From: Salinibacterium sp. TMP30
Lineage (GTDB): Bacteria > Actinomycetota > Actinomycetes > Actinomycetales > Microbacteriaceae
Direction of reading: 5' to 3'
Length of the DNA: 64,000 nucleotides
NCBI RefSeq assembly: GCF_038397785.1
Contig: NZ_CP151642.1
Coordinates: 2,356,001 to 2,420,000, forward strand
Shown here: positions 7,545-54,587 of the stretch, piece by piece
Layout: every line of letters begins with the position of its first letter
How positions within the stretch are numbered: position 1 is the first letter of the stretch
Translations under genes and position numbers: made by a program
Notes under the pieces: model-generated
The model's input: the letters and a program-made list of their open reading frames with translations, nothing else
Database searches by the model: none
Told to the model about the DNA's origin: nothing

Positions 7545-8957
7545 TCAACCGTCCTCCAGCAGCGGAAATCCGCGCATGGATATCCGATCGTCACAGGCCA
7601 ATGTCGTGGCCCACAGCGCGATGGCGTCCAATTCGGGAGCAGCTTCGCTGACGAGGGCGATGAACTTGGCCCCAATGTCTTCATCGAGTGCACGGTTCTT
7701 TGGGTTCCCGTATGGGTTCTCGCAGGACCCGGTGAGCACCCGTCCGGAAGTGAATTCGAGCTCGACTCGAGCGCGATGGACATCGGGAAAGACCGCATCA
7801 TATTTCGAATCCGACTGAATCGTGACTCGTTCCGCGAGCTGCCGGATGTCAGGATCAGTGAGGGCGGCTCCTTCGAACGCGGCTGCCGAGGCTGCACCAT
7901 GGACGAGCGTAGTGGCCACGGAGAACGGGATGGAGAACCGCGCTGCCAAGGGCGTTAGCAATTCTGGCAGTGCGTCGAGTTCCGCTGCACGCTCGCTAAC
8001 CCGCACGCTGACGCGCGCGACTGTGCGCGGATCGATTCGTGCGCCCAGCTCCCAACGGGCCCGTTCCGGTGAGGTATCTTCCCTCACAGCGTCAATAAGG
8101 GCGTCGACGACGGGATGCAGATGGCCGCAGGTGGAGTGGAACTTCACGTATCCGTCATTAACAGCCCAAGAAGCCCCCAGGTTTTCAGTGAGTGGTCCTT
8201 CCTCGAAGCGCTCGCCGAGGATACTTCCGAAGACTTCTGTCACGGATCTGTCGAATGCGCTGAAACCTACTGCCATGAGTCGGTCAACAGTGAGTGCTGT
8301 GAGTCCGCTCATCGCTGGTGCGGCCGAGTGAATCGTGGCCCCGGAGTAGGGAAGGCTGTACGAAGTGGCCGACGCGAATGCCGCAGCAGCGTTCATCGCT
8401 GCCGCGGTCGCTATGGCGTCCGCCCCCCGAAGCCACGCGAGGGCGGCTGCCACTCCGACATGCCCGTAGTTGCCGTGGCAGTGAATCGGCGGTCGGAGTC
8501 GTGCCGCACGCTGAATCCTGGCTTGGACCTCGTAGCCCAGAATGAAAGCGGTCAGGAACCGTCGGCCAGAGGCGTCGTTTGCCTGAGTTGTGGCTAGGAC
8601 GGGCGGCAGGATGTGCATCGCGGGATGTCCGGTTGGGCGAGTGCCCTCGTCCAGCTCCGTCGAGCAGGCTGACACGGCGTTGAGAAGTGTTGCCTCCTCG
8701 ATGTCTACTCGTTGAAACAGCGGTGAAATTACGGTCGCCGGTCCCGTGTTCTGCGAGCCGTCGATGAGACGGTGAGCCAAGTCCGTCACCGAACCTCGCA
8801 GCATGACACCGATGGTGTCCGATATAACGAACGATGCACGCCTTCGGGTCGCAGATGGGATATGATCGCCCGTCGTCGCTGCGACAAATCGTGCGAGCTC
8901 CTGGACTGATGGCTCGAAGTTGGAGCTGCTTTCCTCGTCAAATTTCATATTCTGCAT
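7545..8957 (-). CDS. MmgE/PrpD family protein (2-methylcitrate dehydratase-like)
   Basis: A 470-residue MmgE/PrpD-superfamily protein. Family features include the Ser-Thr-Glu-rich loop ACSTELDEGTRPTGHPA near residues 97-113, the glycine/alanine-rich helices GVAAALAWLRGADAIATAAA, and VKFHSTCGHLHPVVDAL. Members dehydrate or isomerise tricarboxylic and related acids, but many have unknown substrates, so no exact reaction is claimed. ATG at 8955-8957 is preferred; a GTG directly before it is equally possible. The start overlaps the MFS gene by 20 bp, indicating one operon with the regulator and transporter. Confidence 0.75.
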   Translation of the reverse strand: MQNMKFDEESSSNFEPSVQELARFVAATTGDHIPSATRRRASFVISDTIGVMLRGSVTDLAHRLIDGSQNTGPATVISPLFQRVDIEEATLLNAVSACSTELDEGTRPTGHPAMHILPPVLATTQANDASGRRFLTAFILGYEVQARIQRAARLRPPIHCHGNYGHVGVAAALAWLRGADAIATAAAMNAAAAFASATSYSLPYSGATIHSAAPAMSGLTALTVDRLMAVGFSAFDRSVTEVFGSILGERFEEGPLTENLGASWAVNDGYVKFHSTCGHLHPVVDALIDAVREDTSPERARWELGARIDPRTVARVSVRVSERAAELDALPELLTPLAARFSIPFSVATTLVHGAASAAAFEGAALTDPDIRQLAERVTIQSDSKYDAVFPDVHRARVELEFTSGRVLTGSCENPYGNPKNRALDEDIGAKFIALVSEAAPELDAIALWATTLACDDRISMRGFPLLEDG

Positions 8958-46135: not shown

Positions 46136-47212
46136 CTAGCGCTCAGGGACGCAGGCACCTGGGCCTGCGCCGTCTAAGAATTCTGCACCAGTGGCGAGCA
46201 CCGCTTCGAAGAATTTTTGATCATCGCTCGACTCATTGACGGTGCCCTTGCACGTGGAGGTGTGCAACTGAAACTGCTGTTCTCCAGCCGCATACCTGAC
46301 GTTCAGGTTGCTCACCGGGGTTGCTTGAGCCGCGGCTAGGAGAGCGTTCTCCCAATCGGCTTCGCGATATTCGCGGTGGCTGATTAGAATCTCTGCGAGC
46401 GCCGGCTTGTCGAGCTGTGGCTTGTTCCACATCAGCAGCACGCCTTCGGGGTATTCAAAGTCTGGCGCCGGGTTCTCCGGGACTGCCGAGAAATCGATCA
46501 GAGGGATGGTGCCGCGGATCCCGTCAAGCAACTGCACAAGGTCGGCTGGCGGCAGGTGCGGATAGGACCGCATCCCCGCAAATTCCCAGATCGTGGGGTT
46601 TTGTGTCTCGTCGTGCACGGCATTGAGTGCTTCGACGTTCTCAATTATGAGTTCAGCGGTACGCCCCGCGTCAGCCTGTTCGGGTGCGCTGAAGGTGCGG
46701 TCGTAGGTCCCGGTAATGGCCGCCGGCGTCAGGGCCATCGATAGTTGGGTGCCGGTCGCGGTTTCTGCAGCCCGCCAGTATGCGAAGTCCTCCGCGAACT
46801 GTTCGTCGGAGTATCCGAAGTAGCTCCGGGTAAGCATGCTGTTGGTGTCCCCTGCGATTCGCAGTGTGAGTAGTGGCACCGCATTTGCCAGCTCGACGCT
46901 CGTGAAGGCCTCATGGGTCACCGTTGCGATCTCCCACGCTTGGTCTTTGGTGGACGCCGCGTTCACTGTCACCTGAAGTTGGGCCTCATCCCCTGACGGG
47001 CCATCGGAGGTGAAGTCGGATGATGCGGACTCAACACCCTCGATGCGCTCAAGCGCTGAGACGACATCCGCGAGCTTTCGCTGCTTTTCAGCATCTGCAG
47101 CCACGACCCCGAACACTTGGCCAGCATCGTTGACAAGCGAGCAGCCGCCGAGAGTGAGAGAAAGGAGCACGGCAGCGGCGACAATTGCGGCCGGACGTCG
47201 AGAACTCTTCAT
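46136..47212 (-). CDS. Putative lipoprotein of unknown function
   Basis: A 358-residue exported protein. The signal peptide ends in the lipobox LTLGGC (Cys24), so it should be lipid-anchored. The mature part has no recognised enzyme motif; a C-terminal cysteine pair (TCKGTV and GACVPER) may form a disulfide. The repeated ratio of small residues with amphipathic segments (ADVVSALERIEGVESASSDF) hints at a BON- or ferredoxin-like fold, but that is a guess. It is divergent from the LysR gene. Confidence 0.7.
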   Translation of the reverse strand: MKSSRRPAAIVAAAVLLSLTLGGCSLVNDAGQVFGVVAADAEKQRKLADVVSALERIEGVESASSDFTSDGPSGDEAQLQVTVNAASTKDQAWEIATVTHEAFTSVELANAVPLLTLRIAGDTNSMLTRSYFGYSDEQFAEDFAYWRAAETATGTQLSMALTPAAITGTYDRTFSAPEQADAGRTAELIIENVEALNAVHDETQNPTIWEFAGMRSYPHLPPADLVQLLDGIRGTIPLIDFSAVPENPAPDFEYPEGVLLMWNKPQLDKPALAEILISHREYREADWENALLAAAQATPVSNLNVRYAAGEQQFQLHTSTCKGTVNESSDDQKFFEAVLATGAEFLDGAGPGACVPER

Positions 47213-47399
47213 GATTCAAACTTACGCACTGGTGGGCGTTGAGGCCTGTCCCCGTTCGGGTTGAGCTCAGGGACGTGCCGCTCAGATCCACCCGTCTCGC
47301 AGCAAATGACGTCTGCTACTGCTGCGTCGCCGCTAGACCAAACCAAAGTTAATCATTCTGTAACGTTATGTAGCGGTGCTTTGGCCATAAGGTGTCGTT

Positions 47400-48476
47400 A
47401 TGCAGGCCGCGTCAGGAGAATCCGCCAACCTTGATGAACTCACGCGTGCACTCGACCTCCACATGCTGCGCATCCTGGTCGCAATCAACGAAACCGGGAG
47501 TGTCTCCGCCGCCGCCCGCCGCCTAGGGTTCAGCCAACCCGCCATCACCCAACACCTCAAGCGCAGCGAAGCCCGCCTCACCATCGCGCTCGTCGCCCGA
47601 ACACCGCGCGGTATGGAACTCACCGAAAGTGGCGCACTCCTTGCGCGTCACGCACCGCGCATCGACGCCGCAATTACCGCCGCCGCCAGCGACCTCACCG
47701 CGCACCTCGGCCTCGACCGCGGCTCCGTGCGGCTTGCCGCGTTTCCCGCCGCCGTCGCCAGCATCATCGCGCCACTACTTTCGCGCCTCGATCGCGAGTT
47801 TCCGGGCATCCATGTCGAATTCAGCGAAGCTAACCCGGATGCCGCCCTCAGCGCTGTAGCCGAAGGTCGCGCCGACATTGCGCTCGATTACCGCTATGCG
47901 AGTGACCACACCATCGCATCGAGCTCCCACACAAGTGCCGACGGACTGCGCTCCCGCTTCCTGCTCTCGGAGAACGTGCTCGCGATCGTTCCCCGCACCG
48001 AAGCCGACAAGTTGGGCGCGACCGCGAGCGTCACAACATTGCTCCCCTTTACGTGGATCGGCGGCCCGGCAACCTGCACCGAACAACTCGTCGCCGTCGC
48101 CCACACCCTCGACGAAAAGCCAAGCCTCCGCCACGATGTAACCAAGACCGATGCCGCACTCGCGCTCGTCGCCTCCGGAATCGGCGTGACCTTTCTCTCT
48201 GAACTCGCACTCGCGACCACCGCCCTCCCCGCCGAGGTCATCGCGATCGAACTTCAGCCCAAACTTCGTCGACGCATCTATGCGACCACCCTCGACGACA
48301 CAGCCGACACCCCGAGCATTGCGGTCGCCCTACGGCTGCTCGCCATGCGTGAGGTGGCCCGGAAAACGAGCAGTGACCGCGCGGCACTATCACAGCACTC
48401 CCATCTTCAGCGCGCGAGATTCTCCTCACCACCATTCACTCATCCTGTGACCCTCACCGAAAGGCACGAACTGCGC
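47400..48476 (+). CDS. LysR-family regulator that runs in frame into the next gene
   Basis: The first 359 codons of an 890-codon frame with no stop. Residues 15-75 are a LysR helix-turn-helix (LDLHMLRILVAINETGSVSA, ARRLGFSQPAITQHLKRSEA). Residues 100 to about 320 are the LysR substrate domain (VRLAAFPAAVASIIAPLL, IALDYRY, GVTFLSELAL). About 38 residues of unremarkable linker lead to the binding-protein start codon. AAGGTG precedes the ATG. Either the LysR stop has been lost or translation of the next gene restarts internally. It likely controls the peptide importer behind it. Confidence 0.75.
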
Positions 48477-50072
48477 ATGAGAACTTCGAACACAACACTG
48501 GCCCGGGGAGCCCGGGCGTCAACGGTTGCCGTTGCCGCCTCCGCCCTACTACTCGCCGGCTGTGCCACCACGAGCACCAATACCGGCGACGGCAACATCG
48601 ACACCATCACCGTTGCCCTGCCCGGATCGCTCTCCAGCCTCTATGTTGGCGCGGAGAGCGGCATCCTGAACTACTACATCGCCTCCATCACCCAGGAAGG
48701 CCTCGTGTCGTTGGATGCCGATGGTGCGCTCCAACCTGGCCTCGCAGAATCGTGGGAACAACCGGATGACCTGACCTACGTTTATGAGCTTCGTGACGAT
48801 GCGATGTTCCAAGATGGCACCCCGGTGACCGCCGATGATGTCGTCTTCAGCTTGGAGCAGGCACGCGACGAAACCAGCTCACCCGGACTCTCCTACTACC
48901 TCGGAGGCGTAGACACCGTCGAAAAGACCGGCGACAGCGAAGTCACCGTCACCCTCACCGCCCCCGACTCTGCCTTCGCAAAGAACATGAGCACCGGTGG
49001 CGCAGCCTTCATCACGTCGCAGAAGTTCTGGGAAGAGAATAACGGCGAGGTCGGCACCAGCAGCTCTCTGCTACTCGGCTCGGGGCCCTACAAGGTCACC
49101 GAGTTCGTCCCCGACTCCCACGTGTACTTTGAACGCGTCGACACCTGGTGGGGCGAGCTTCCCACGGTGAAGAACATCGACGTGAAGTTCATCCCCGATG
49201 AGGGAACGCGACTTCTCGCGGCCCAATCTGGCGACATCGACATTGCCTTCAACGTGCCGCTTGCCCAGTCAACCCAGTGGGAAAACCTCGACAACATGCG
49301 CGTCGACTACGTCAACGACCTCTCGTACGTCGGCATGTACTTCAACACCACACTCGCCCCCTTCGATGACCCGAAGGTGCGCGAAGCATTCGCCCACAGC
49401 GTCGACCGCACCACCATCGTTGACAAACTGCTGCGCGGCCACGGAGAAGTAGCCACCGCCATCGCCACTCCAGAATCGCTCGGAAGTGTCTATAGCCCCG
49501 ACGATGCCCGCGACCTGCTCGCGAGCATCCCGCAGTATGACTTCGACCTCGACGCGGCCGCGAAAGCGCTTGCGGCATCCGATCACCCGGATGGCTTCGA
49601 AACCGACATGCTGTTCCCCTCGACCGGACCCCAGCTCGGCTCTGCCGCGCAATCGCTCGCCGAGAACCTCTCCAAGATCGGCATCACCCTCAACGTGCGT
49701 GAAGTTCCTATCGAAGAGTGGCTTGCGAGCCTAGAACCCAACAGCAGCTACGGCGTAGGGCTGATGTGGTACTTCTCCACCCTCGGTGACCCCTCGGAGG
49801 TGTCGTCGTACATGCTCGGCGAGTTCAACATCTCAAACTACGAGAACCCAGAAGTGCTCTCACTGTTTGAACGTGTTGGTGCCGAGACCGACCCGGCGGC
49901 CCGCATCGACCTTCTCATTGAGGCGGAAGTTCTCCAGGCCGAAGACATCATCAACGTTCCGCTCTGGTGGGGACAATCAGCAACGGCATTCTCGAAGAAC
50001 ATCGAAATGAGCAACTACAGCTCATTCGCGTTCATCTCGTCGTGGCCCGCTACGCTCACCCCCGCTGGATAG
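48477..50072 (+). CDS. ABC transporter substrate-binding lipoprotein, peptide family
   Basis: Read from ATG at 48477 this is a 531-residue SBP_bac_5 protein. The signal peptide ends in the lipobox LLLAGC (Cys29). Family segments: GLAESWEQPDDLTYVYELRD, VREAFAHSVDRTTIVDKLL. AAAGG lies 13 bases before the ATG, further than usual. The frame is continuous with the upstream LysR gene, so a 890-residue fusion is formally possible; a functional signal peptide in its middle argues for separate synthesis. It opens an importer operon with 3 bp to the first permease. Confidence 0.82.
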   Translation: MRTSNTTLARGARASTVAVAASALLLAGCATTSTNTGDGNIDTITVALPGSLSSLYVGAESGILNYYIASITQEGLVSLDADGALQPGLAESWEQPDDLTYVYELRDDAMFQDGTPVTADDVVFSLEQARDETSSPGLSYYLGGVDTVEKTGDSEVTVTLTAPDSAFAKNMSTGGAAFITSQKFWEENNGEVGTSSSLLLGSGPYKVTEFVPDSHVYFERVDTWWGELPTVKNIDVKFIPDEGTRLLAAQSGDIDIAFNVPLAQSTQWENLDNMRVDYVNDLSYVGMYFNTTLAPFDDPKVREAFAHSVDRTTIVDKLLRGHGEVATAIATPESLGSVYSPDDARDLLASIPQYDFDLDAAAKALAASDHPDGFETDMLFPSTGPQLGSAAQSLAENLSKIGITLNVREVPIEEWLASLEPNSSYGVGLMWYFSTLGDPSEVSSYMLGEFNISNYENPEVLSLFERVGAETDPAARIDLLIEAEVLQAEDIINVPLWWGQSATAFSKNIEMSNYSSFAFISSWPATLTPAG

Positions 50073-50075
50073 TCA

Positions 50076-51065
50076 GTGATCTCAACCCCGATTGCACGCG
50101 CATCACGAGCACGGCCCCTCGGCCGCATGCTCGTGGTGCGTGTGCTCGGCACCCTCGGCATTCTGTTGGTGCTCTCCATTGTCGTATTCTCGATGCTGCA
50201 CCTCGCCCCCGGCGATATCGTCAAGAACCTTCTCGGCAATCGACCATCATCACCGGATGCCGTAGCCGCGATTCGTGCGCAATATCATCTAGATCAGCCT
50301 CTCTACATGCAATACCTGATCTGGCTCGGCAACACCCTCACCGGTGACTTCGGTCAATCCATTCGTCTGCAGGATTCGGTATCGAATGTGATCGGCGCCC
50401 GCCTCGGTATCACCGCGTCGCTCAGCGGTCTTGCGTTTGTTCTCGCGCTTGTCGTCGCAATCCCGCTTGGTGTTCAGAGTGCTGTGCGTTCGGGCAGCTG
50501 GATCGACCGCTTCGCTACCGGCTTCGGCATCGTCGGGCTCAGCGCCCCCACCTTCGCCGTCGGCCTGCTCCTGCTCTACGTTTTCGCGTTCTACCTGCCA
50601 ATCTTTCCGGTCTACGGCTCTGGGGATGGCGGACTCGACACTCTCTGGCACCTTGTGCTCCCCGCTATTACTTTGGCGCTTGGACTCGGGGCAATCATCC
50701 TCAAACTCACCCGCACGGCGATGCTGCGCGAACTCGAATCCGACTATGTAACCTTTGGTCACGCGCGCGGACTTCCCGATCGCCAAGTGCACATGATCGC
50801 CCTGCGCAACGCTGCCATCCCCATCGTCACCGGCGCCAGCCTCGTGCTGACCTTCCTCGTCGGCGGCACCGTGCTCGCCGAGACCACGTTCGCTTTGCCG
50901 GGCCTCGGCACCCTGCTGCAAGGCTCCGTGCTTTTCAAAGACATTGCCGTTGTGCAAGCACTCACCCTGCTCGTGGCGGTGACGATTGCAACAATCGCGC
51001 TGCTCGCCGACCTCGCCTACATCTTCCTCGATCCCCGCATCCGCGCTAAGGAGGGTGCACAGTGA
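50076..51065 (+). CDS. ABC transporter permease, DppB family
   Basis: A 329-residue permease with six spans: APGDIVKNLLGNRP after the first span, MQYLIWLGNTLTGDFGQSI, and the coupling loop GHARGLPDRQVHMIALRNAA, ending YIFLDPRIR. The start is GTG at 50076, 3 bp after the binding-protein stop; its end overlaps the next gene by GTGA. It is distinct from the DppB-like gene at 24491, so the window holds two peptide-type importers. Confidence 0.88.
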   Translation: MISTPIARASRARPLGRMLVVRVLGTLGILLVLSIVVFSMLHLAPGDIVKNLLGNRPSSPDAVAAIRAQYHLDQPLYMQYLIWLGNTLTGDFGQSIRLQDSVSNVIGARLGITASLSGLAFVLALVVAIPLGVQSAVRSGSWIDRFATGFGIVGLSAPTFAVGLLLLYVFAFYLPIFPVYGSGDGGLDTLWHLVLPAITLALGLGAIILKLTRTAMLRELESDYVTFGHARGLPDRQVHMIALRNAAIPIVTGASLVLTFLVGGTVLAETTFALPGLGTLLQGSVLFKDIAVVQALTLLVAVTIATIALLADLAYIFLDPRIRAKEGAQ

Positions 51066-51919
51066 GCAGCACCGAAGCTATCGCCCTCGCACAGGTTCCC
51101 CGCACGCGCCGTCGGCATCCCCTCGCAGTGTGGGCCTCGCTAATTCTGCTGGGCGTCGTGGCACTTCTGGTCGTGTTTGGCAATCTGATTGCTCCGGATG
51201 CCACAGCCCAGTCGATTCTCGATTCCCTCCTGCCACCGGGCAGCCCCGGCCACCTTCTCGGCACCGACGAACTCGGTCGTGACGTGCTCGCCCTGACGAT
51301 CGCAGGAGCGTCATCCGCCCTCATCGGCCCGATCTGCGTCGCGCTAGGCTCGATGCTCATCGGAATCGTACTCGGCACCATCTCCGGCTATCTGCGCGGC
51401 CCCATCGACTTCATCATTGGCCGCTGGACCGACCTGCTCTTCTCGCTGCCCCTGTTGCTCGCCGCGATTGTCGTTGCCGGCGTTTTCGGTGCCGGCTATT
51501 GGATGACCGTGCTGCTGTTGATCTTGCTGTTCTCGCCCTCAGACACCCGCATCGTTCGTGCTGGAGTGATGGAGCAGGCCGCTCGACCGTTCGTGGAGGC
51601 AGCCCAAATGCTGTCCCTCTCCCGCACCCGCATCATGTTTACCCAAGTGCTGCCGAACGTGTCATCGCTCATCATCACAAACGCGATGCTCAATGTGGCT
51701 TTCGCTCTCGTCGCATTCTCCTCACTGTCATTCTTGGGCGTCGGCGTTGCTCCCGGAACCGCAGACTGGGGCCGCCAGCTCACCGATGGCCGAGCGATCA
51801 TGGTCGACAATCCTGCCGCCGTGCTCGTGCCCGCACTACTCATCATCGGGGTTGCTTCTGCAGCAAACCTCGTCGGCGACTGGCTCGGGCAAAACTTGAC
51901 CAGAACGGGGCGCTCATGA
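51062..51919 (+). CDS. ABC transporter permease, DppC family
   Basis: A 285-residue permease partner. It has HLLGTDELGRDVLALTIAGA, GTISGYLRG, and the coupling loop EAAQMLSLSRTRIMFTQVLP, then SLSFLGVGVAPGTADWGRQL. The start is GTG at 51062, overlapping the previous stop; its end overlaps the ATPase gene by ATGA. Translational coupling along the operon is evident. Confidence 0.88.
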   Translation: MSSTEAIALAQVPRTRRRHPLAVWASLILLGVVALLVVFGNLIAPDATAQSILDSLLPPGSPGHLLGTDELGRDVLALTIAGASSALIGPICVALGSMLIGIVLGTISGYLRGPIDFIIGRWTDLLFSLPLLLAAIVVAGVFGAGYWMTVLLLILLFSPSDTRIVRAGVMEQAARPFVEAAQMLSLSRTRIMFTQVLPNVSSLIITNAMLNVAFALVAFSSLSFLGVGVAPGTADWGRQLTDGRAIMVDNPAAVLVPALLIIGVASAANLVGDWLGQNLTRTGRS

Positions 51920-53472
51920 CGCACGAACAAGTCGCCGTCACGGGCTTGACCATTGATGGCCCTGCCGGTGTCGTCGTCGCGCCCTTCGACTTCTCGATTG
52001 CTCCCGGCGAAACTCTTGCGCTCATCGGCGAATCGGGTTCGGGAAAGACACTCTCGGCAAAAGCCATCGCCGGGCTACTGCCCGCCGGGTTCAGCGCGCG
52101 CGGCACGATCGCTCTGGGCAGTGCCACGATCGAACTGCCGTCAACGGATGCCGTCTGGCGTGCCACCCGGGGCCGCCGAATCTCGCTGCTGCTACAGGAT
52201 CCCTTCACCAGTCTGAGCCCCGTGCACCGCTGCGGAATCCAAATCGGCATGACAATTGATGCGGCAAGCGATCGTCAATTGAGCCGTAGCGAACGAACCG
52301 CCCTCGTCACCCAGCGCCTCGCCGAAGTGAACCTGCCCGCGGAAGTCGCCCGCGCCTATCCCCACGAACTCTCCGGCGGAATGCGTCAACGCGTTGCCAT
52401 CGCCGCAGCCCTCGCCACCGACCCCGAACTACTGATCGCCGACGAACCGACCACCGCTCTCGACGCGAGCAACCAGGGCGAAATTCTCGACCTGCTGCGA
52501 GGTCTGCAACAAGCCCGCGGGATGGCCGCCCTCCTCATCTCCCACGACCTCGGTATGGTGCGGGGGCGGGCCGAACATGTGCTCGTCATGCGCGCCGGCG
52601 AAATTGTGGAGCGAGGCCTCACGAGCTCCGTGCTCAGTGCGCCTAGCCACCCATACACTCGCGCGCTCATCGAAGCCGACCCCTCCCTGACCGACCGCTC
52701 TGCCGGTGTCTCACACGCGGCATCCGACACCGCTAACGACCTCGTCGTTGTCACGGACCTCACCAAGAGTTTCGGCGACAAAACAGTGGTGCACGGGGTG
52801 AGCGTGACGATCCCTCGCGGGGAGACCGTCGGAATTGTGGGCGAGAGTGGTTCAGGCAAGACCACAATCGCGCGGTGCATTGCCGGGCTCGAGCGCGAAA
52901 CCAGCGGCAATATCGAGTTTGACGGTCTTGCTCTGGCCCCCGGCCGCGCTTCGCGCACTCCAACGCAAATGCAGATCGTGTTTCAGGATCCCTACTCCTC
53001 GCTGAACCCCATGATCAATGTTGGGCGGTCGCTGAAGCTCGCGCTCAGCGTGGCGGGGCGTCCGGCATCCGATCTGCCAGGCCTGCTGAAACTCGTGGAA
53101 CTACCCACAGAATTCGCCGGAAAACGGCCAGCCGAACTTTCGGGAGGGCAACGACAGAGGGTGGCCATTGCGCGGGCACTAGCGGTGCAACCTCAGCTGC
53201 TCATTTGCGATGAGTCAGTATCGGCCCTCGACGTTTCGGTACAAAAACAGATCCTCGATTTGCTCGCGAAACTGCGTGTCGATCTCGGACTCTCGATCCT
53301 GTTCATCTCCCACGACCTCGCCGTTGTGCGCCAACTCGCCGACCGCGTCTACGTGCTGCGCGATGGCGAAGTCGTTGAATCCGGAGCCTGCCAAGACGTG
53401 CTCAACTCACCAACCCACCCCTACACCCAATCCCTCGTCGCCGCCTCAATTCACGAAACGGCACCCCACTGA
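51916..53472 (+). CDS. Fused double ATPase of a peptide ABC importer (DppD-DppF type)
   Basis: A 518-residue protein with two ABC ATPases in one chain. The first has GESGSGKTL, LSGGMRQR and LLIADEPTTALD (about 40-190); the second has GESGSGKTT, LSGGQRQR and LLICDESVSALD (about 310-450). In the second Walker B the usual Glu-Pro is Glu-Ser, still keeping the catalytic Glu. The upstream frame extension is discarded because ATG at 51916 overlaps the permease stop. It supplies both nucleotide-binding domains for the two permeases. Confidence 0.88.
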   Translation: MTHEQVAVTGLTIDGPAGVVVAPFDFSIAPGETLALIGESGSGKTLSAKAIAGLLPAGFSARGTIALGSATIELPSTDAVWRATRGRRISLLLQDPFTSLSPVHRCGIQIGMTIDAASDRQLSRSERTALVTQRLAEVNLPAEVARAYPHELSGGMRQRVAIAAALATDPELLIADEPTTALDASNQGEILDLLRGLQQARGMAALLISHDLGMVRGRAEHVLVMRAGEIVERGLTSSVLSAPSHPYTRALIEADPSLTDRSAGVSHAASDTANDLVVVTDLTKSFGDKTVVHGVSVTIPRGETVGIVGESGSGKTTIARCIAGLERETSGNIEFDGLALAPGRASRTPTQMQIVFQDPYSSLNPMINVGRSLKLALSVAGRPASDLPGLLKLVELPTEFAGKRPAELSGGQRQRVAIARALAVQPQLLICDESVSALDVSVQKQILDLLAKLRVDLGLSILFISHDLAVVRQLADRVYVLRDGEVVESGACQDVLNSPTHPYTQSLVAASIHETAPH

Positions 53473-53513: not shown

Positions 53514-54587
53514 GTGGAATCTTCCACTCACACTATTGAGCGCTTCACCCCGGCAGCGATGCCCGCCAAATTACTGAGCGCTCTCGGCCCTGAGCGTGCC
53601 GAATTCTGGAAGCTCAATCGCGAGCCATACAACCCGCAGGTGTGGATGCTCGACTCACCGCACGGCGCGGCTGCAGCCCTCACCTCTGGTCGCCCCAATA
53701 CGCGCTACACAAAAATTGTCGATCTCTGGTGTGAGGCCGGTGCCAGCGCAGAAGTACTCGTGGGCGAAATCATTACGGCATCCCAGCAGCGCGGTGATGC
53801 CTGCATCAAGTGGCAACTGGCTTCGGATACTGAACTGCCCGGCTTCGCGCTCGCCCTCGGTTTCAGTGAACTGCGTGAGCCCATCTCCTCGGCCGACGGC
53901 ACCCGCGATGTGCGCGGATTCGTGAAGTGGCACAGCGAATGGCCACACCCCCAGTTGCGCTATTACGGGCAGACCACGCTCTTCACGTGTGGGGCTGTAG
54001 CCGCCATGACGGCGCTCACCCAGCTCGGACTCGACCCCTTCGATTCGACCGACGACGCCGATGCCCGCGAGCGCGAACTCGCCTTCTGGCGGGCAGCAAC
54101 CAACTTTCCGGCCGTCGAACCCATCGGACTCGCCGTTGCCGTGCACGATGCGGTCGCCGCAACAGGCGTACGCCTCGAACTTCACCTCGACACCACTGAG
54201 CCGACATTGCTCGAAACGTATGAGGGCGACGAGCGCGTCTTTCGGGAGCAGCTGCAAACACAATCGCGGGCAGAGGCGGCGAGCCGCGGCATCCAGCAGC
54301 ACACCCAACCACTCCCCATCGAAACGATCGTAGAGCGGGTGGCTGGTGGCGAGCTGGCACTGCTGCTGATCGAAGAAGAGCCCATGCACGACGCCTCAAC
54401 ACCGCACTGGGTTGTCGCCCACGCGGTGCAGGGTGACACGGTGCTAGTGAACGATCCGTGGATCACAGCGGAGCACGGCGAGACCTGGGTTGACTCCCAC
54501 GATCTGCCCGTTTCGGTCGCGGTGCTCGACCAAATGGTTGCTTTCGGTGACCCCGCGTATCGCGGAGTGATTTTTATGGCACGCTGA
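53514..54587 (+). CDS. C39-like cysteine peptidase family protein
   Basis: A 357-residue protein whose second half is a papain-like C39-type domain: catalytic Cys in YYGQTTLFTCGAVAAMTAL (about residue 164), His in TPHWVVAHAVQGD and an Asn/Asp in VLVNDPW. The N-terminal half (to about 140) has an alpha/beta pattern reminiscent of a GNAT-like fold (RYTKIVDLWCEAGASAEVLV, ALALGFSELREPIS). There is no signal peptide. The start is GTG at 53514, 4 bases after AAAGGAC. It is last in the importer operon, so it may cut imported peptides in the cytoplasm; this is inference. Confidence 0.72.
   Translation: MESSTHTIERFTPAAMPAKLLSALGPERAEFWKLNREPYNPQVWMLDSPHGAAAALTSGRPNTRYTKIVDLWCEAGASAEVLVGEIITASQQRGDACIKWQLASDTELPGFALALGFSELREPISSADGTRDVRGFVKWHSEWPHPQLRYYGQTTLFTCGAVAAMTALTQLGLDPFDSTDDADARERELAFWRAATNFPAVEPIGLAVAVHDAVAATGVRLELHLDTTEPTLLETYEGDERVFREQLQTQSRAEAASRGIQQHTQPLPIETIVERVAGGELALLLIEEEPMHDASTPHWVVAHAVQGDTVLVNDPWITAEHGETWVDSHDLPVSVAVLDQMVAFGDPAYRGVIFMAR

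Follow-up and report, generated by a model that had tools for sequence, protein, structure and literature searches.

A LysR-type regulator and a substrate-binding lipoprotein in one conserved open reading frame, with an internal start, in Salinibacterium and relatives

Closest described systems and the fused gene

The LysR type is probably the largest of the bacterial regulator families, and its members are usually separate proteins of about 300 residues, a length that serves as a guide and is not a strict criterion. Other regulators provide the nearest points of comparison. In SgrR-like regulators, according to a preprint (PMC13060122), an SBP_bac_5 domain is combined with an HTH; ToxR-like receptors are described in PMC5936718; and more than 100 kinds of DNA-binding domain, among which the LysR type may figure, are recorded for transmembrane regulators in PMC10269533. 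In the main text of PMC10269533, LysR occurs once, in the title of a reference, and the terms solute-binding and lipoprotein are absent. No description of a LysR regulator fused to a substrate-binding protein (SBP) was found in the literature searched, which included few subscription journals.

We analyzed a window of 64,000 nucleotides from Salinibacterium sp. TMP30, the genome of which is a single 2.69-Mb contig; all positions given here are those of the window. A gene on the forward strand (47400 to 50072), resolved from the open reading frame, Pfam matches and relatives into a LysR regulator, a linker and a lipoprotein SBP, runs from ATG 47400 to TAG 50070-50072 without an in-frame stop, and this bears out the sequence-only reading that the stretch from the LysR domain to the signal peptide of the binding protein lies open within 890 codons. 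A Pfam scan of the 890-residue product at E ≤ 0.001 placed a LysR-type DNA-binding domain at the N terminus (HTH_1, PF00126, 2.7e-17, residues 20 to 78), followed by a LysR-type effector domain (LysR_substrate, PF03466, 6.8e-24, residues 105 to 314) and, farther on, by the SBP domain SBP_bac_5 (PF00496, 5.3e-80, residues 444 to 812). The first two constitute a LysR module of residues 1 to 314 (47400 to 48341), delimited by Pfam and by pN/pS, and both were above the Pfam cut-off in the 890-residue protein and in the four relatives scanned; the usual separate end of a LysR protein, at about 300 residues, is missing, there being no stop until codon 890. A second ATG at 48477, in frame with ATG 47400 and ahead of a lipoprotein-type signal peptide, would begin a 531-residue SBP_bac_5 lipoprotein (48477 to 50072). 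Each half has its own relatives in the PDB: for the LysR half they align mostly with the N-terminal part, and for the SBP half they include 5u4o and 6hlx (AgaA). An AlphaFold model of the fusion, built from nine sequences of which eight were 89 to 100% identical to the 890-residue protein and one 75%, was too poor for use (mean pLDDT, 37.6).

Downstream on the same strand lie two ABC permeases (both BPD_transp_1; 50076 to 51065 and 51062 to 51919, the second with OppC_N just under the cutoff), an ABC ATPase with two nucleotide-binding domains (51916 to 53472; the scanned segment, 51499 to 53469, included bases ahead of the gene) and a C39-like peptidase-family protein (DUF3335; 53514 to 54587), all assigned by Pfam. 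The first permease adjoins the SBP, fused or unfused, in 20 of 20 loci, and the DUF3335 gene comes after the importer genes in 19 of these irrespective of fusion, the exception (G132) being cut by a contig end. The gene order of the operon is kept, and the accompanying permeases and ATPase identify the SBP as that of an importer; the DUF3335 neighbor hints at a peptide-like ligand. On the reverse strand, 46136 to 47212 encodes a divergent lipoprotein-like protein of 358 residues without a Pfam match, which is 33% identical to its counterpart in one Salinibacterium relative, against 91 to 98% for the neighboring genes; no counterpart turned up in the second relative checked.

The fused protein resembles LysR-type regulators at large in its HTH_1 and LysR_substrate domains and in a motif 5' of its own start that suggests autoregulation; it differs in being extended by some 45 linker residues, a signal peptide and a complete SBP, and in standing first in a same-strand operon, unlike the divergent LysR gene of one unfused locus, G215. 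It shares with SBP_bac_5 lipoproteins of the OppA/NikA/DppA type the domain itself, the signal peptide, the lipobox and the succession of two permeases and a double ATPase, but its SBP coding sequence runs upstream into LysR without a stop. As in SgrR-like regulators, SBP_bac_5 stands behind a DNA-binding domain; SgrR_N, however, was not matched at E ≤ 0.001 (HTH_1, LysR_substrate and SBP_bac_5 were the only matches), and the protein is further set apart by its LysR domains, internal signal peptide, lipobox, internal start and location in an importer operon. Were the fusion inserted into the membrane, it would have the order of DNA-binding domain, hydrophobic segment and outside domain of ToxR/CadC-like regulators, as these are described in PMC5936718 and PMC10269533; unlike them, it has a LysR DNA-binding part with an effector domain of its own, a lipoprotein-type signal instead of a plain membrane helix, and an outside domain that is the transporter's own SBP.

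Distribution and history of the fusion

In the genomes searched, LysR lies directly 5' of the SBP and on the same strand in 33 loci from six genera and two families, and in 32 of these the two form an uninterrupted single frame; the search among relatives that had been proposed from the sequence thus recovered the fusion well beyond its first host. A stop codon at the junction was also looked for and occurs in none of the 33 linkers, the frame of the exceptional locus, G842, breaking earlier, inside LysR at about residue 288 and ahead of the linker, so that its LysR frame differs from that of linker and SBP. This break, at about 3330 to 3336 of L102, may be natural or may derive from assembly. 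The count of 33 is a lower bound, because at the family, order and class levels evenly sampled genomes were searched, with cutoffs of E ≤ 1e-100 or 1e-80.

Twelve of 27 Salinibacterium genomes, TMP30 included, carry the gene, in all 12 as one frame, and the other 11 carriers are 87 to 91% identical to it over the LysR part; among the 15 genomes without it, 14 gave only more-distant LysR matches and G009 gave none. Nineteen of 398 genomes in the family sample matched at E ≤ 1e-100, nine over the whole length (seven Salinibacterium genomes, G090 and G411), G046 over residues 249 to 890 and nine in the SBP only. The fusion was present in the single g65 genome, in 9 of 60 g80 genomes (one of them with an additional SBP-only copy) and in 1 of 11 g21 genomes, alongside two SBP-only matches; in g94, which represents a different family, 9 of 44 genomes have a LysR-SBP locus, the broken G842 being among these nine. 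The order sample (396 genomes, 17 matched) added the fused G807 of g85 and seven SBP-only genomes, and the class sample (394 genomes) gave, besides TMP30, four SBP-only matches, none of which matched the LysR part, and no new fusion. The same frame in 12 of 12 Salinibacterium loci and in five other genera rules out a sequencing error, including the read error at the junction against which the sequence-only reading had cautioned, as well as a stop loss confined to one strain.

Sixteen of the 18 SBP-only loci have no LysR in the stretch seen, which spans 3 to 16 kb in total and, for eight loci, only 0.8 to 1.5 kb upstream; of the other two, G215 has a related LysR next to the SBP in divergent orientation and G467 is cut by a contig end. 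Judged from these neighborhoods, the transporter can do without a nearby LysR, a point that counts against the explanation we favor below. The unfused arrangement of G215 (L067, about 8180 to 8420), with LysR divergent from the SBP, is perhaps near the one that preceded fusion.

All 29 fused rows used in the SBP tree fall in one 31-row clade (100/99), the other two rows of which are g21 loci, and 28 fused rows group together in the LysR tree, joined there by one paralogue row with 14% filled columns. The LysR of G046 is only 33% identical to that of the 890-residue protein, a divergence that raised the possibility of separate fusion events; this was rejected on the SBP tree, which places G046 beside the other fusions (100/99). 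In the LysR tree, G046 also groups with the fusions, at the end of a very long branch; the program flagged this position as unsure. Two changes of the fused or unfused label are required on the SBP tree, and one gain plus one loss in g21 fits; G467, a g21 locus, ends at the contig end, and its fused state cannot be judged. These trees are most simply explained by a single origin and a subsequent loss in g21, and transfer between families is possible because g94 belongs to a different family. On this comparative evidence, the fusion is old and not a recent stop loss. The first half of the simpler explanation offered at the outset, loss of the LysR stop as a trivial event, is therefore not supported: the carriers share one SBP-tree clade with the two g21 loci, and the linker in Salinibacterium evolves as protein.

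Linker, internal start and promoter

The linker comprises residues 315 to 359 (45 residues; 48342 to 48476) and was delimited by pN/pS and codon-position counts. For the linker (residues 319 to 359) of the 12 Salinibacterium loci, pN/pS amounts to 0.136, compared with 0.138 for LysR_substrate (101 to 318), 0.132 for residues 1 to 100 and 0.071 for the SBP, and the variable linker columns (residues 319 to 359) are distributed 5/3/21 over the codon positions, third positions accounting for 21 of 29. By these measures the linker is evolving as protein in Salinibacterium, i.e., is translated, and the third-position variation rules out a purely noncoding conserved junction in that genus. Linker windows in g80 have pN/pS values of about 0.4 to 1.0, the second half being hardly constrained as protein; those in g94 range from 0.26 to 0.52, figures that include G842, the out-of-frame LysR of which inflates pN ahead of the linker.

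When the 44-codon linker of TMP30 was shuffled by dinucleotides, 43% of the shuffled sequences had no in-frame stop, so an open junction is unremarkable in this genome alone, and the weight of the finding rests on conservation. No frame-0 stop occurs in the 33 linkers, against totals of 16 and 21 for the alternative frames. The 12 Salinibacterium loci, which are closely related, contribute 29 of these 37 off-frame stops, and high G+C content leaves most g80 and g94 linkers stop-free in all three frames. Multiplied over ten chosen divergent members, the chances of a stop-free shuffle give 0.011. Linker length varies from 38 to 52 codons without ever a stop, and hence has changed with no loss of frame. 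Most g80, g85 and g94 members share a basic motif, [DE]ARRR[ST]-xx-HRARF, with varying codons; it is shortened to QRARF or QRAKF in Salinibacterium (QRARF at 48408 to 48422 in TMP30), is weak in G465 and G046, and is followed by a spacer of 12 to 25 residues when the two loci with a wrongly picked ATG are left out. Synonymous change at residues 321 to 340 (48360 to 48419) is 0.179 in Salinibacterium, the lowest of 168 windows of the open reading frame (mean, 0.387; standard deviation, 0.076), a dip that is absent in g80 and g94; a DNA or RNA element inside the linker, with an additional role at the nucleic acid level, is possible. Inverted repeats (CAGTG...CACTG and GTGAC...GTCAC) were seen by eye at 48360 to 48419 in most relatives and are less complete in TMP30.

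Ahead of the internal ATG lies the Shine-Dalgarno-like site GAAAGG (48459 to 48464), the computed pairing energy of which is -7.4 kcal/mol against the 16S tail, a strength equaled at 3.5% of codon positions in this open reading frame. Over 33 loci the internal start averages -8.4 kcal/mol and the remaining in-frame ATGs -3.6 kcal/mol; of these 272 remaining ATGs, 32 are equally strong, 22 of them from two loci in which an incorrect ATG had been chosen as the internal start, and in the 31 loci with a correct pick, equally strong sites stand at 0.2 to 11% of codon positions. The Salinibacterium loci share GAAAGG with G090; in G807, the five g94 loci inspected and seven of the nine g80 loci the site is AGGAGG or resembles GAGGAG(G), in G046 it is AAGGAG, and in G456 and G465 it is only GGAG. 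The internal ATG opens a type II (lipoprotein) signal peptide, MRTSNTTLARGARASTVAVAASALLLAG (48477 to 48560), located between linker and SBP domain and followed at once by the lipobox cysteine, residue 388 (48561 to 48563), and a pattern script found a lipobox-type cysteine in 33 of 33 loci. By inspection and script, the SBP has the type II signal, lipobox cysteine, own start and ribosome site of a lipoprotein. The restart at 48477 that had been read from the single sequence is upheld by these features, and sequence conservation of the Shine-Dalgarno-like site, ATG and lipoprotein signal indicates that internal restart is a conserved property. Conservation of the lipobox would be needed anyway by the free SBP, and this, too, counts against the explanation we favor.

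The hydrophobic stretch of the signal is short. Its best 15-residue mean is 2.08, versus 2.13 and 2.03 for stretches within LysR, and over 19 residues it lies outside the six highest values listed; membrane linkage is therefore the weakest step of the argument, and hydropathy gives no strong prediction of a stable membrane anchor. The initial proposal of a one-protein transmembrane sensor accordingly stands at the level of coding, and as a sensor the protein is a possibility only, its signal being short, of the lipoprotein type and no more hydrophobic than parts of LysR.

A -10-like TANNNT hexamer, TAAGGT (47388 to 47393), ends exactly six bases ahead of the LysR ATG, and the TANNNT-N6-ATG layout was found in 30 of 33 loci by script and in 32 after the start codons of G435 and G438 were corrected by eye, G842 not being assessable; the LysR start thus looks leaderless, as a prediction from this spacing. 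Overlapping this predicted promoter and extending just upstream is the dyad-like element GTAACGTTATG-N15-CATAA (47360 to 47390), a proposed LysR autoregulatory operator. The 12 Salinibacterium loci have TTATG (10 loci) or TTATA (2 loci), each with CATAA. The only exact match to the pattern in the TMP30 genome is the promoter of the fused gene; with up to three mismatches there are 4 matches versus 7 for a reversed control, so only the exact match is informative. A GTAAC/GTTAC-type motif was seen by eye just 5' of TANNNT in many loci; it takes the form GTAACGTTAT in Salinibacterium, TTGTTAC in several g80 loci and GTAACCCATGG in several g94 loci, varies between genera and appears by eye to be absent in G046, G494 and G629. 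At the equivalent position ahead of its divergent LysR, G215 carries GTAACCTTATG, without the CATAA half, and TACGAT stands five bases before that LysR's ATG. These motifs suggest an old autoregulated LysR promoter that has driven the whole operon since the fusion, and the LysR-SBP gene is probably autoregulated.

Possible products and significance

The open and conserved fusion, the selection on the Salinibacterium linker, the conserved internal start and lipobox and the TANNNT-N6-ATG layout come from sequence comparison, and from them we infer four further elements: leaderless transcription, autoregulation, membrane location and sensing. We suggest that the gene, with its two starts, encodes both a LysR-SBP fusion and a separate SBP lipoprotein, and that LysR regulates its own gene while the fusion acts as a membrane-linked sensor, an account that we consider rather more probable than otherwise. 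The short hydrophobic stretch, the weak constraint on the g80 linker, the variability of the GTAAC-type motif and the broken LysR frame of G842 weigh against it. Transcription would start at or beside ATG 47400, and ribosomes starting there would read LysR, linker and signal peptide into the SBP; LysR would be made as part of the fusion because there is no stop. The Shine-Dalgarno-like site and ATG 48477 would also give the free lipoprotein, which would feed the downstream ABC importer, and LysR, through the upstream element, would act on its own promoter and hence on the whole SBP-permease-permease-ATPase-peptidase operon. The internal signal sequence would keep the fused LysR on the cytoplasmic side of the membrane and the SBP outside the cell, and ligand or transporter occupancy would be reported to LysR through the fusion. 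Since there is no stop, a LysR protein ending near residue 314 could presumably arise only by proteolysis, from truncated messages or through interrupted translation, and LysR must function as a fusion or be cut from one. In its fullest form, which we advance tentatively and hold to be slightly less than an even prospect, the importer would report on itself: the SBP of the membrane-linked fusion would dock to the importer or bind ligand outside and signal to the DNA inside, and the internal start would supply free SBP.

Internal signal peptides can separate two proteins encoded by one gene, as in the cytochrome b/c1 gene fbcH of Bradyrhizobium, and the fusion might likewise be a polyprotein, in which signal peptidase II cuts before Cys388, freeing LysR with a short hydrophobic tail and exporting the SBP, with no sensing. 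The invariant lipobox-type cysteine is compatible with this, as are the basic residues that follow the internal start in the 890-residue protein; the recurring basic linker motif, however, exceeds the needs of a cut site, the internal start already supplies free SBP, and a released LysR would presumably keep hydrophobic residues on its tail, so that we regard such processing as unlikely. A cytoplasmic regulator of the SgrR kind, in which folded LysR blocks export, the SBP domain inside senses imported ligand and the lipoprotein comes from the internal start, would accord with the shortness of the hydrophobic stretch and with the combination of HTH and SBP_bac_5 in known SgrR-like regulators (PMC13060122), but the DNA-binding part is of the LysR type with no SgrR_N matched, and a purely cytoplasmic protein would need the signal sequence and lipobox between its domains only for the internal start; we judge it quite unlikely.

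Under neutral read-through, the simpler explanation offered at the outset, a single loss of the LysR stop would have left a fusion without function: LysR would remain active with its tail attached, and the SBP from the internal start would be the one product of consequence. Such a history could be reconciled with the conserved internal start, with a 44-codon junction likely enough to be open by chance here (0.43), with the many G+C-rich g80 and g94 linkers that are stop-free in every frame and with the weak constraint on the g80 linker. It is nevertheless very improbable in our estimation, for regained stops or frameshifts would be expected somewhere in a neutral junction, whereas the frame has been kept through changes of linker length in 32 of 33 loci, the Salinibacterium linker is under protein-type selection and the linker motif is retained across two families.

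For the annotation of these genomes, the two-product account of the gene calls for caution, in that either domain may be taken for the whole protein and the 890- and 531-residue products may both be real. If the LysR-SBP fusion operates as proposed, it would amount to a natural biosensor design; LysR regulators are usually soluble and carry a domain for small molecules, and one joined to an exported binding lipoprotein would, if true, constitute a new route of signaling from the outside of the cell to its DNA.
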